Notes under the pieces: generated by a model
What the model was told of the DNA's origin: nothing
Seen by the model: only the letters and a program-made list of their open reading frames with translations
Database searches by the model: none
IMG/VR virus record: IMGVR_UViG_3300044535_002125
Span: 1-29,450 of that record
From: a virus
Reading direction: 5' to 3' (one strand)
Length of the DNA stretch: 29,450 bases
Program-made: the position numbers and the translations under genes
Shown: piece after piece, positions 640 to 15,329 of the stretch
Layout: every line of letters starts with the position of its first letter
How positions within the stretch are numbered: the first letter of the stretch is position 1

Positions 640-710
640 ACATGCTATGGTTGTATGAAGCAACTAGAAACGGATTCAAGACGCGGGGGCAGTGCCCGCC
701 AGGTCCACCA

Positions 711-797
711 AAAGTATATTACCCTACCCAAAGGGTGGCCGACAGTGGTTGGAAGGATCGGCTCTTTTAGCTTATATGCTAGTAGTATGCTTTTGAT
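711..797 (+). other. Intervening segment of the permuted pre-tmRNA
   Basis: This 87-base segment lies between the encoded CCA of the acceptor piece and the first G of the coding piece. In permuted tmRNAs the equivalent linker is cut out after transcription. It contains short possible hairpins, ACCC-AAA-GGGT (about 735-746) and GCCGA with TCGGC further on. No protein-coding signal is convincing here: a 74-codon open frame crossing 655-879 runs through all conserved tmRNA elements. Confidence 0.75.
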
Positions 798-881
798 GGG
801 CCTGACACAGGATCGATTGGGTCAAGAGTACAGAAGTGGACAACTCACCAGAGTAGGTGTAAAAACTAAATCAAAGTAAAA

Positions 882-914
882 GCAAACGAAAGTCGCTTTT
901 TGATGGCTGCTTGA
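882..914 (+). other. tmRNA tag-peptide reading frame (ANESRFLMAA)
   Basis: The resume codon GCA at 882-884 is followed by AAC GAA AGT CGC TTT TTG ATG GCT GCT and TGA (912-914), with an in-frame TAG next. With the alanine carried by the tmRNA the tag is A-ANESRFLMAA, matching the general form of E. coli AANDENYALAA: A-N start, aromatic residue in the middle, hydrophobic residues and terminal Ala-Ala. U at -5 and A at -4 relative to the resume codon match the E. coli positions that set the resume frame. The tag end lies in hairpin GATGGCT 902-908 / AGCCATC 916-922. Confidence 0.9.
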
Positions 915-932
915 TAGCCATCTAGGGTTTTT

Positions 933-965
933 GACAGTTTACCCTCGTAACAGAATTAAACTGTC
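933..965 (+). repeat. Inverted repeat downstream of the tmRNA tag
   Basis: GACAGTTT (933-940) and AAACTGTC (958-965) can form an 8-bp stem with a 17-base loop. It competes with a smaller stem AGGGT 924-928 / ACCCT 941-945. Neither is followed by a T tract, so it is not a classical terminator. It may mark the 3' processing boundary of the pre-tmRNA or shape the leader of the hydrolase gene at 985. Confidence 0.45.
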
Positions 966-12134: not shown

Positions 12135-13459
12135 TGCAAACAACGACACTTGGGTATGAGATATTAAATCTCACGATTGAATCTATTGATGGCAAGAATG
12201 GTATAGATATTAGATTCATTTTTGATGAAATCAACATTTTTGAGAATGTCATGCTGCCTTGCATGTCCGGCAACATCGTCATCCATGATGCGATAGGACT
12301 ATCCACCAAACTGAACTTTGATGGAAGCGAGTATATTCGCATCAACATCACCAAGGACGATAAAACTCTAGGCAGACAATTTGATATGAATTTTGATAGA
12401 CGATTTGTTATCTACAAGTTGTCCAATCGAAAAGAAGTTAATCAGAACTCTGAGATTTACACACTTCATTTTGTCTCGGATGAATTCATCCTCTCACAGC
12501 AAAAGAAAGTTAGAAAGAATTACAAAGATACTCATGACAAGATGATCATGAGTATCCTGAAGGAATATTTGAATTTAAAATTTGAGACACCACAAATTGG
12601 AAGCATATTTCCAACAAGTGGTGTGCATGAGTTGAATATTCCCAATCTATCGCCGTTTGATGCAATAAATTACATCACCAAACGAGCGATAGGGCCATCT
12701 GGACGCCCAGATTATCTGTTTTGGCAAACGCCACTGGCCGGATATAATTTTATGCCTCTATCGGAGATTCTAACATTCGATGCGCCACATACCATAACAT
12801 TCGGTGCAAAAAATCTACCAGTCCAAACAAAAGAGAAACAATTTTTCAGTGAGTTGTATGGCGCTAGAGACTTGAAAATCATTTCACAGTATAACTACTC
12901 CGAAAACATCCAAGCTGGAGTTTATGCCGGCAAATTTATCGGTTTCGACACGATAACGCGAAAAATAAAAACGCATAATTTGTCATACTCAAATGTTTAC
13001 AACATGGAACCAAATCATGCAAATGAGTATCCACACAATAACAAAATTTTGAATAAAGAATACAATACCGCAGACACGATGTATGATTCGCGTGTGACAC
13101 TTTATCCATTCCAAACAAACAGAGCCAATAATTCATATCTACTGACTAACGACACACGTTCAACACAGAATATTGATGACACTGAAAAGTACATCCTACA
13201 GAGAAAAATGATATTGTCCAATCTAATGCAAAGGAAACTCAATATATCCATGCCTGGCAATTTCCAATATGTTGCAGGATCAATGATTGAATTACTTGTG
13301 CCTAAGAGAAATAACATCGATAAAGATGAATATACAGATGGTGACAAAACACTAAGTGGAAAATATCTAATCACAGGTCTACGACATGTCATAAAATTTG
13401 ATAAACATGAAACGTTACTTGAAGTGGTGACTGATTCCACTAATTATGGAGCACGATAA
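12134..13459 (+). CDS. 27: Baseplate hub protein gp27
   Basis: 441 residues (T4 gp27: 391). gp27 forms the trimeric ring at the hub that carries the gp5 spike; it is related in fold to gpD of other contractile-tail systems. Visible parts are an N-terminal beta domain (GKNGIDIRFIFDEINIFENVM, CMSGNIVIHDAIGLS), the segment YTLHFVSDEFILSQQKKVRKNYKDT, a helical HDKMIMSILKEYL, LSPFDAINYITKRAI, and the C-terminal LVPKRNNIDKDEYTDGDKTLSGKYLITGLRH, a strand-rich end typical of hub proteins. It sits directly before the gp5 OB-domain gene, with TAATG overlap. Confidence 0.85.
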   Translation: MQTTTLGYEILNLTIESIDGKNGIDIRFIFDEINIFENVMLPCMSGNIVIHDAIGLSTKLNFDGSEYIRINITKDDKTLGRQFDMNFDRRFVIYKLSNRKEVNQNSEIYTLHFVSDEFILSQQKKVRKNYKDTHDKMIMSILKEYLNLKFETPQIGSIFPTSGVHELNIPNLSPFDAINYITKRAIGPSGRPDYLFWQTPLAGYNFMPLSEILTFDAPHTITFGAKNLPVQTKEKQFFSELYGARDLKIISQYNYSENIQAGVYAGKFIGFDTITRKIKTHNLSYSNVYNMEPNHANEYPHNNKILNKEYNTADTMYDSRVTLYPFQTNRANNSYLLTNDTRSTQNIDDTEKYILQRKMILSNLMQRKLNISMPGNFQYVAGSMIELLVPKRNNIDKDEYTDGDKTLSGKYLITGLRHVIKFDKHETLLEVVTDSTNYGAR

Positions 13460-14514
13460 TGAGTGAAGATTTCGCAGGCAAAAACGGGCACCATTGGTTC
13501 ACAGGCATCATCATTCAACGTGATGATCCGGCGAAGTTGGCTAGAGTTCGTGTTCGCATAATTGGTTGGCATGACGCAGGAACTAAGGTAGAAGATTTAC
13601 CTTGGGCAGAGGTATTACTTCCAATAAACGCATCAAGAAATTTCAGTCTTCCTGCTGAGGGTGAGTGGGTTCATGGATTTTTCAAGGACGGTATCAATGG
13701 GCAACAACCTGTAATCGTTGGGGTATATCCAGGAATTATACCGACGGGAGTGGAGATTACCGATGAGCCCGCGTATTATCCACCGAAAGCCAACAACTCT
13801 CCAAAACTACCCACCGATGTGAAAAATGATCGTGTTGGTGAATCCAATGTTCCTGCGCTAGGAAGAGAACTGCTCGTTTCAACAGGAATTGAATTCTCAA
13901 ATAATAACAGATCACATGCATGTGATACTACATTATATGTGAGGCGCTCAATTGGATATGCCACTGGACTGTCAAAGCAAATTGCTACGGCAATTAGAGC
14001 CGCAATCAAAGCATTTTTGAAAGCTATTGGATCGGCAACACCCTCCGGCGCAGGAGTTGCTGGCATGATCAAAAGTCTAGCACACTCAATCAAGAAACTG
14101 ACAGAAATAATCAAAAAAATAAATTCAAGTCTGGATGCTTTCGTCACTCAAGTTGCGTATATCAAATCTGTCATCAACTATATTCTAAATCTTCCAGCAA
14201 ATCTACTGGCACTATTCAAGAAGTGTTTAGCTGAAGCATATGCTGAATTGAATGCTGGATTTATGCAAATAGCATCCGATTTCGATTTGACAACTATTCC
14301 TGAAGTTGATGAAATTGTCACTGCTGCAAAAGGCGCACTAAAAGACGTAGTTGATCTAGCAAAAGCCACGGGCGAATTAGTGTCGAAGCCTGGTGCTGTA
14401 ATAGATGCTCTAGGAAACACAACCACAATAACAGATGATCAAGCTAAGGAGTTAGTGGGTGATTTATTTCCTGGCGCCGAAGCATTTAAACAAGAAAATT
14501 TTGAAAGACCCTAA
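13459..14514 (+). CDS. 5: gp5-like hub protein: OB domain without lysozyme
   Basis: 351 residues. Residues 1-95 match the OB-fold N-terminus of gp5/gpV spikes: HHWFTGIIIQRDDPAKLARVRVRIIGWHD, DLPWAEVLLP, GEWVHGFFKDG and QPVIVGVYPG. T4 gp5 then has a lysozyme domain and a beta-helix. Here residues 100-350 show neither. Instead there is a Pro-rich segment, an AVGESNVPALGRELL region and a long helical stretch (IKAFLKAIGSA, IKKLTEIIKKINSSLDA, LPANLLALFKKC). The beta-helical needle is encoded by the next gene, 2 bases downstream. So gp5 is split, and the muralytic function is not in this gene. The OB-domain call is firm; the role of the helical part is unknown. Confidence 0.85.
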   Translation: MSEDFAGKNGHHWFTGIIIQRDDPAKLARVRVRIIGWHDAGTKVEDLPWAEVLLPINASRNFSLPAEGEWVHGFFKDGINGQQPVIVGVYPGIIPTGVEITDEPAYYPPKANNSPKLPTDVKNDRVGESNVPALGRELLVSTGIEFSNNNRSHACDTTLYVRRSIGYATGLSKQIATAIRAAIKAFLKAIGSATPSGAGVAGMIKSLAHSIKKLTEIIKKINSSLDAFVTQVAYIKSVINYILNLPANLLALFKKCLAEAYAELNAGFMQIASDFDLTTIPEVDEIVTAAKGALKDVVDLAKATGELVSKPGAVIDALGNTTTITDDQAKELVGDLFPGAEAFKQENFERP

Positions 14515-14516
14515 TT

Positions 14517-15329
14517 ATGGCAAAAACTGAACAACCAAGTAGATACTCATGGACAGAGCCTGAGTCGGACTACAAAGCAAAATATCCATACAACAATGTG
14601 ATGCAATCTGAATCAGGACATTTTCTTGAATTTGATGACACAAAGGATGCCGAGAGAATACGCCTGCAACATCGTGTAGGAACATATACAGAGATACAGG
14701 TAGACGGATCAAGCGTCAACAAAATCATAGGTGACAACTACCAGATCGTCCTGAAAGACAACAATGTATTGATAAGCGGTGCATGTAATATTACAGTTGA
14801 GGGCGACTCAATATTGACGGTGAACGGTGATTGTGTTCAGAGAATAAAGGGCGATTTCTTACAGGAAATTGAAGGCGACTACCAACAAGTTGTCAAAGGA
14901 AGCATGAGCATAACATCAAAGAATGACATTGATATCACAGCAGGATCAACTGAAGGATCAATCTATATTACAGCGCCAACTGTTGTTGACATAACCAGTG
15001 ATTTGGATGTGGATGGCGCTATAGCGGGAGAATCAATCACATCCAGAAATGAAGTGACCGCTGGTACAGGTATTCACGCTGGTCTTCCAGGTTCAACTAA
15101 TCCATTTGCGGGCATATCAACTTTAGGCGGCATGTCTGCTGGATTCATGACACCAGGCATTCCAGGAACAATCAATGCTACAGTGAGTGTAAATGCGCCA
15201 TTGATTTCAGGTATAGTTGTGACAGACATTGTTGGTCCTATGCAGTTGATTCGTCTTCTCTACAACACTCACACACATTTCCATGCAAGAGGACCAGGAT
15301 TCACGGCAATGCCAATTCCTATGATGTAA
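14517..15329 (+). CDS. 5: Central spike needle, beta-helical gp5 C-terminal equivalent
   Basis: 270 residues. Residues 35-150 contain regular short beta repeats (VDGSSVNKIIGDN, VLISGACNITVEGDSILTVNGD, VQRIKGDFLQEIEGDYQQVVKG), the V-x-G-D type pattern of gp5C/gpV triple-stranded beta-helices. A second part is Gly/Thr-rich (TAGTGIHAGLPGSTNPFAG). The C-terminus reads NTHTHFHARGPGFTAMPIP with H252, H254 and H256, resembling the H-x-H iron-binding tip of P2 gpV-type needles. It would form the membrane-piercing tip on the hub. The split from the OB domain is a real gene boundary: the previous gene stops in another frame and this one has its own ATG. Confidence 0.83.
   Translation: MAKTEQPSRYSWTEPESDYKAKYPYNNVMQSESGHFLEFDDTKDAERIRLQHRVGTYTEIQVDGSSVNKIIGDNYQIVLKDNNVLISGACNITVEGDSILTVNGDCVQRIKGDFLQEIEGDYQQVVKGSMSITSKNDIDITAGSTEGSIYITAPTVVDITSDLDVDGAIAGESITSRNEVTAGTGIHAGLPGSTNPFAGISTLGGMSAGFMTPGIPGTINATVSVNAPLISGIVVTDIVGPMQLIRLLYNTHTHFHARGPGFTAMPIPMM

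Follow-up and report, generated by a model that had tools for sequence, protein, structure and literature searches.

The locus examined here raises the question of whether a T4-like phage carries a working ribosome-rescue RNA of its own, encoded as a permuted gene in which the 3' acceptor half lies upstream of the 5' half, and of what occupies the spacer (IVS) between the two halves. The DNA analysed is a 29,450-base virus record, referred to as the window, of which positions 641-972 were read directly from the sequence; the exonuclease gene, the promoter and all parts of the tmRNA gene described below lie on the plus strand. Our reading, held with high confidence, is that the locus is a functional phage permuted ssrA whose transcript would be processed to two pieces, charged with alanine and used to rescue ribosomes, and that the spacer serves as a recombination cassette.

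The permuted gene and its surroundings

A sequence-only reading of this DNA had proposed a complete permuted, two-piece tmRNA gene at 646-945 and had suggested a search with the Rfam covariance models. In that search (cmscan), tmRNA_permuted (RF04321) matches at 649-914 over its full model length, 1-213, with 101.3 bits against a gathering cut-off of 47 (E 6.4e-19), and the two halves stand in the permuted order. The beta_tmRNA model (RF01850) matches at 597-972 with 76.5 bits, below its own cut-off of 84, which is passed by relatives such as L015 and L007. The gene therefore lies where it had been placed, although its 3' limit was drawn too early, as a pseudoknot carries the 5' half to about 966. 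ARAGORN reported no tmRNA in the window, perhaps because of the T-loop GGCAGTG, which is without the usual T54-T55-A58; several relatives with the same loop were likewise missed, and others were detected.

The gene has its own near-consensus sigma-70 promoter, as had been claimed: TTGACA and TATACT, 17 bases apart (611-639), agree with the consensus at 11 of 12 positions, and from their position transcription would start at about 646. The 3' half (646-710; RF04321 from 649) is the tRNA-like acceptor piece, made up of P2 strands, T-arm, acceptor 3' strand, A707 and an encoded CCA. The three long-range pairings described earlier are all present: the acceptor stem joins 798-804 (GGGCCUG) to 700-706 (CAGGUCC, the 3' strand being followed by ACCA up to 710), P2 joins 817-823 (UUGGGUC) to 673-679 (GAUUCAA) with two G-U pairs included, and the T-stem of the T-arm (683-699) joins 683-687 (GCGGG) to 695-699 (CCCGC). 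The pair G800-U704 occupies the position of the G3-U70 pair, U704 being U70. Between the halves lies the spacer (711-797), predicted to be excised; it is strongly structured (fold z -2.88), with a closing helix of 711-722 with 782-793 followed by UGAU at 794-797.

The 5' half (798-966; RF04321 to 914, beta_tmRNA to 972) is the mRNA-like piece. Behind the acceptor 5' strand it continues with a D-like segment (805-816), the second P2 strand, a pairing of 841-844 with 650-653 and a hairpin of 846-849 with 856-859. The tag frame (882-914) opens with the resume codon GCA at 882, encodes ANESRFLMAA through 911 and ends at the stop TGA (912-914), which sits inside the loop of the hairpin 902-922. An H-type pseudoknot follows at 924-966, formed by 924-928 with 941-945 and 932-940 with 958-966; the scan used to check the region downstream of the tag for pseudoknots under-scores the window through greedy helix extension.

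Immediately upstream, a PD-(D/E)XK exonuclease gene (48-614; phrog_298 exonuclease, E 6.7e-62; PF12705) ends with a stop codon, 612-614, that falls within the -35 box of the tmRNA promoter. The gene order is T4-like, running from the exonuclease and the tmRNA through a cell-wall hydrolase, an AAA ATPase, a DsbA-like regulator, gp33, gp59, a nucleotidase and gp32 to baseplate genes, so that the assignment to a T4-like phage made from the sequence stands; the gp6-like protein is closest to those of Melnitz, Mosig and HTVC008M. The hydrolase gene (PF07486, 985-1542) lies 3' of the tmRNA, and the DNA here differs among near-identical phages. The T4 gp5-like baseplate hub (13459-15329) is split into two genes, one matching the N-terminal part of the family and the other its middle part.

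Conservation of the tmRNA among related phages

Using the upstream exonuclease gene as bait, we gathered 80 viral loci, and at least 68 of these carry a permuted tmRNA above cut-off, mostly downstream of the exonuclease gene; most of the records compared are metagenomic contigs. The suggestion that such a gene is a rarity in T4-like phages was too strong, given this count, the published permuted tmRNAs of T4-like aquatic phages (PMC9004378) and the SsrA annotated at the same exonuclease/gp33 site in Melnitz and Mosig.

Loss of the acceptor, P2 and T-stem pairings in related phages had been named as an outcome that would speak against the gene; instead all three are kept and covary over about 50 related phage loci. 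Compensatory changes were seen in the T-stem and P2 among 48 distinct relatives, and the acceptor stem occurs in eight sequence combinations. With the 5' half anchored by motif, and the pairing itself not used for selection, the acceptor strands pair at seven of seven positions in 49 of 53 relatives, compared with a mean of 30% for shuffled partners; of the four exceptions, at least three seem to come from an anchor one base off or placed on a wrong GGG. G3-U70 does not vary (48/48 relatives), a figure to be read with the finder's own requirement for GGG and TCC. A promoter with at least 11 of 12 consensus bases stands at this position in 49 of 177 relatives, against 1 of 177 after shuffling, and compensated versions of the pseudoknot are found in L005, L267, L016 and L025. 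The tag frame is likewise kept, relatives encoding ANDERFALAA, ANDSQFALAA, ANDNKFALAA and similar tags at the same place where the window has ANESRFLMAA. Tag ends of the types -LMAA and -LMVA recur in phage tmRNAs (window 900-911, L205-L310), alongside -ALAA in sister phages such as L067 and L081.

These observations bear on the possibility that the RNA is a decaying or decoy tmRNA, one that retains the tRNA-like part and has lost tagging. Such forms are documented, as the tag-less tmRNA of phage DS6A inhibits the host tmRNA (PMC11915505), and the atypical T-loop and altered tag end of the window could be taken as signs of the same course; however, neither the window nor its relatives show damage to the tag frame, the stop hairpin or the downstream pseudoknot, every pairing covaries, and we regard a decoy as very unlikely.

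For the functional permuted tmRNA that we favour, expression, processing, charging and tagging can be set out as a conditional sequence of steps. The sigma-70 promoter would give a single precursor consisting of 3' half, spacer and 5' half, in which the spacer helix would bring the CCA end beside the start of the 5' half. Host tRNA-processing enzymes would then excise the spacer, leaving two pieces held together by the acceptor stem and P2, and the host alanyl-tRNA synthetase would charge this two-piece molecule by way of G3-U70. Cleavage by RNase P, trimming of the 3' end, charging with alanine, rescue with SmpB and tagging for proteolysis are steps expected here from what is established for tmRNAs in general. 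A look through 30 related phage records, many of considerable size, turned up no gene for SmpB, and we therefore assume that the host supplies SmpB, with which the RNA would rescue stalled ribosomes and add (A)ANESRFLMAA; whether ClpXP would recognize this tag is uncertain, because it ends in -LMAA and not in -ALAA. Replacement of the host tmRNA and retagging of host proteins, which the sequence-only reading put beside rescue, are further conceivable roles.

Content and turnover of the spacer

In viral loci the closing helix of the spacer begins directly after ACCA and stops four bases, usually UGAU, short of the 5' half. All ten of its ten pairs form in 128 of 167 distinct spacers, against 24 of 167 when strands are swapped between spacers. 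What lies inside this helix changes fast among relatives, with spacer lengths ranging from 28 nt (L071) to 382 nt (L246); the exact core of the window spacer was found in two other viral contigs only. L002, which is the same as the window here, and L004 are 100% identical over the exonuclease gene and the 3' half and differ in their spacers, and from the resume codon on they differ in tag, pseudoknot and downstream sequence as well; L007 and L004 have the later part in common and are unlike in 3' half and spacer. On these comparisons the tmRNA gene is a mosaic, with exchange breakpoints at the spacer borders and near the resume codon.

The closest relatives of the window tmRNA show what may be exchanged. 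L215 has an identical (100%) 3' half, a 5' half of 99% identity and the same tag, ANESRFLMAA, together with a 172-nt spacer that holds a 52-aa gene; L267 (3' half 100%, 5' half 95%) has a spacer that encodes a 23-aa membrane peptide; and L005, with the same two identities as L267, has a non-coding spacer of 49 nt. In L215 and L267 the reading frame has a ribosome site near the 5' end of the spacer and a stop near its 3' end. No such ORF is present in the window spacer: the frame that ends at its TGA gives only MLVVCF from an ATG, and the recurring VVCF stems from the helix sequence, so that a coding reading was rejected and the spacer is probably non-coding. Since the tmRNA body is shared with L215, L267 and L005 and no credible ORF is found, the window appears to have the same tmRNA with a different cassette, a structured and probably non-coding insert. 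As a recombination cassette, the spacer holds a gene for a small protein in part of this phage group, among them relatives with tmRNA bodies 99-100% identical to that of the window.

The frequency of such genes was assessed in two sets. A complete gene, with its ribosome-site motif and start no further than 24 nt from the 5' end and its stop no further than 20 nt from the 3' end, is present in 26 of the 146 distinct viral spacers that reach 60 nt or more, compared with 2.06 in mononucleotide shuffles. In the second set, 104 clusters of spacers with a terminal TGAT, an ATG-initiated ORF of 18 aa or more closes exactly at the TGA in 19; 200 dinucleotide shuffles gave 3.5 on average and never more than 9. 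A ribosome-site motif falls within the first 14 nt in 17 of these 19 coding spacers and in 14 of the 85 others. The proteins fall into several families of 21-29 aa membrane peptides, a DUF2061 membrane protein (PF09834, E 3.7e-21), a CxxCxxCC protein (PF03692, E 1.3e-6), and 52-aa and 122-aa proteins; tmRNA_permuted (Rfam) scored above cut-off at all 14 checked loci with spacer genes. Judged by pN/pS, the larger families are under purifying selection, with values of 0.13-0.38 overall, 0.16-0.21 for the families of 69-122 aa and 0.30-0.38 for that of 52 aa; where short peptides differ enough for a ratio, most give 0.13-0.57.

That the spacer genes of relatives are chance ORFs is a reading to which we give hardly any credence. 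Shuffled spacers do yield some ORFs, and pairs of the shortest peptides have a weak selection signal or none (L079/L145, 1.26), but the excess over shuffles, the placement of ribosome-site motifs, the constraint on the larger families and the Pfam domains all argue against it, as does the 122-aa family: in 13 of its 14 full loci the gene lies within a tmRNA spacer, and the tmRNAs concerned differ in their T-arms. DUF2061 relatives are mostly found elsewhere in phage genomes (38 of 40), and this gene was therefore probably captured into the spacer.

Some assignments within these families were dropped. A GNAT identity for the 122-aa protein has weak support (pLDDT 71; best Foldseek E 0.012), the L015 spacer is not a gene ending at the TGA, as its frame continues into the 5' half, and the ORF picked in the L029 spacer is in the wrong frame. 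No isolated phage with a 122-aa or 52-aa spacer gene was found. A relative of the 122-aa protein with 68% identity lies outside any tmRNA (L408, 1501-1851), within a longer reading frame and with QGVAE flanking motifs. The spacer of L029 (1271-1640) resembles two tandem spacers joined by an acceptor-end remnant (CAGGTTCACCA), the first of which codes for an MDSEYLY-type membrane peptide; it is possibly a trace of cassette insertion by recombination.

The spacer genes have their ribosome site in the closing helix, and their stop is the UGA of the last four spacer bases; because of this placement, translation of the spacer and maturation of the tmRNA may exclude each other. Folding or processing could thus switch the spacer gene off. 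The excised spacer might itself act as an mRNA with a terminal stop; on trimming it would become a non-stop message, to be tagged by the tmRNA itself, and the cassette protein would then build up only while the tmRNA is immature or saturated. A parallel for a non-stop message under tmRNA tagging is arfA. We put this coupling of cassette translation to tmRNA maturation forward tentatively, and consider it rather improbable as a general property of phage permuted tmRNAs.

The cassette with its protein genes in close relatives, the -LMAA tag end and the mosaic gene are points that the sequence-only reading did not contain. What is new is the gene-bearing, swappable spacer, the permuted tmRNA itself being already known in aquatic phages; a literature search limited to open-licence papers found no prior report of genes or ORFs in these spacers. 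On this account phages retain and diversify a ribosome-rescue RNA of their own, and the spacer of the permuted gene, hitherto seen as processing waste, would be a site where they park and swap small protein genes. Many of the products are membrane micro-proteins that standard annotation may overlook. The reason for keeping the permuted form becomes testable, the spacer being a candidate for a tolerated insertion site downstream of a strong promoter, and the window, L005, L215 and L267, whose tmRNA bodies are almost alike and whose spacers differ, are ready test cases.

Known permuted tmRNAs in phages and bacteria

Among bacteria, the permuted cut-off is passed by 12 of 250 genomes of the order of Jezberella, which we take to be Burkholderiales. 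The betaproteobacterial permuted tmRNA (RF01850/RF04321) is like that of the window in the order of its halves, in P2 and T-arm and in a beta-like tag body, and its spacer hairpin resembles the phage form in often having UGAU before GGG. The ten bacterial spacers that were read (5-42 nt) are mostly simple hairpins, several with this UGAU, and contain no gene, in contrast to phage spacers, which span 28-382 nt and may carry genes. A permuted tmRNA was also seen in a bacterial bin from Lake Erken (L331; G012:C93:882-1131), on a contig of 3,040 bases that is perhaps a misbinned piece of phage.

A strict -RFLMAA tag pattern matched 59 times among the viral loci and nowhere in 84,980 genomes; the scan itself works, since a comparable -ALAA pattern did find bacteria. 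That the gene is a captured copy of a host ssrA without phage function, as might arise because prophages often sit in ssrA and can take fragments along (PMC9004378), is barely tenable against this tag distribution, the gene's own promoter, its completeness within a T4-like module and its constant position in numerous diverged phages. An attempt to read the host lineage from the tag was abandoned, as the -LMAA pattern is without a bacterial match and bacteria with similar -ALAA tags are mostly under the permuted cut-off. Nor can it be read from the form of the gene, because isolated phages of Stenotrophomonas, Xanthomonas and Synechococcus also carry permuted tmRNAs; these score above the RF04321 cut-off and have a spacer between the halves, as in the window, and differ in their tags and in having spacers of 31-111 nt that show no convincing gene. 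In BUCT-ZZ01, a Synechococcus phage from fresh water (ON615601; L443, 1313-1609), the permuted tmRNA is unannotated, and its model score is beta-like rather than cyanobacterial.

The nearest described counterparts are the ssrA genes of Melnitz and Mosig (MZ577097, MT647606; PMC9004378), which are permuted, two-piece and T4-like and lie, like the window gene, between a PD-(D/E)XK nuclease gene and gp33/gp59/gp32. Their tmRNAs are alpha-type with other tags, whereas the window scores best, below cut-off, with beta among the older three models. In Melnitz, an isolated phage, a glutamine riboswitch follows the tmRNA, and the 142-nt spacer (L082, 1078-1261), besides a ribosome site, contains an open frame of 54 aa extending into the 5' half; neither the riboswitch nor such a frame is present in the window. 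More broadly, among the unique structures from 402 phages with a tmRNA, Buchholz et al. (PMC9004378) counted 53 two-piece forms, 50 of them aquatic, and proposed functions for them; the paper on the tmRNA database (PMC11915505) presents RF04321 along with 79 sequences from phages. The closest likeness to the spacer cassettes is the group I intron tmRNA with homing endonuclease ORFs (PMC11915505), where protein genes also lie within an ssrA gene; there, however, the ORF is housed in a self-splicing intron in the T-loop region, whereas here it occupies the spacer of a permuted gene, for which splicing is not needed.
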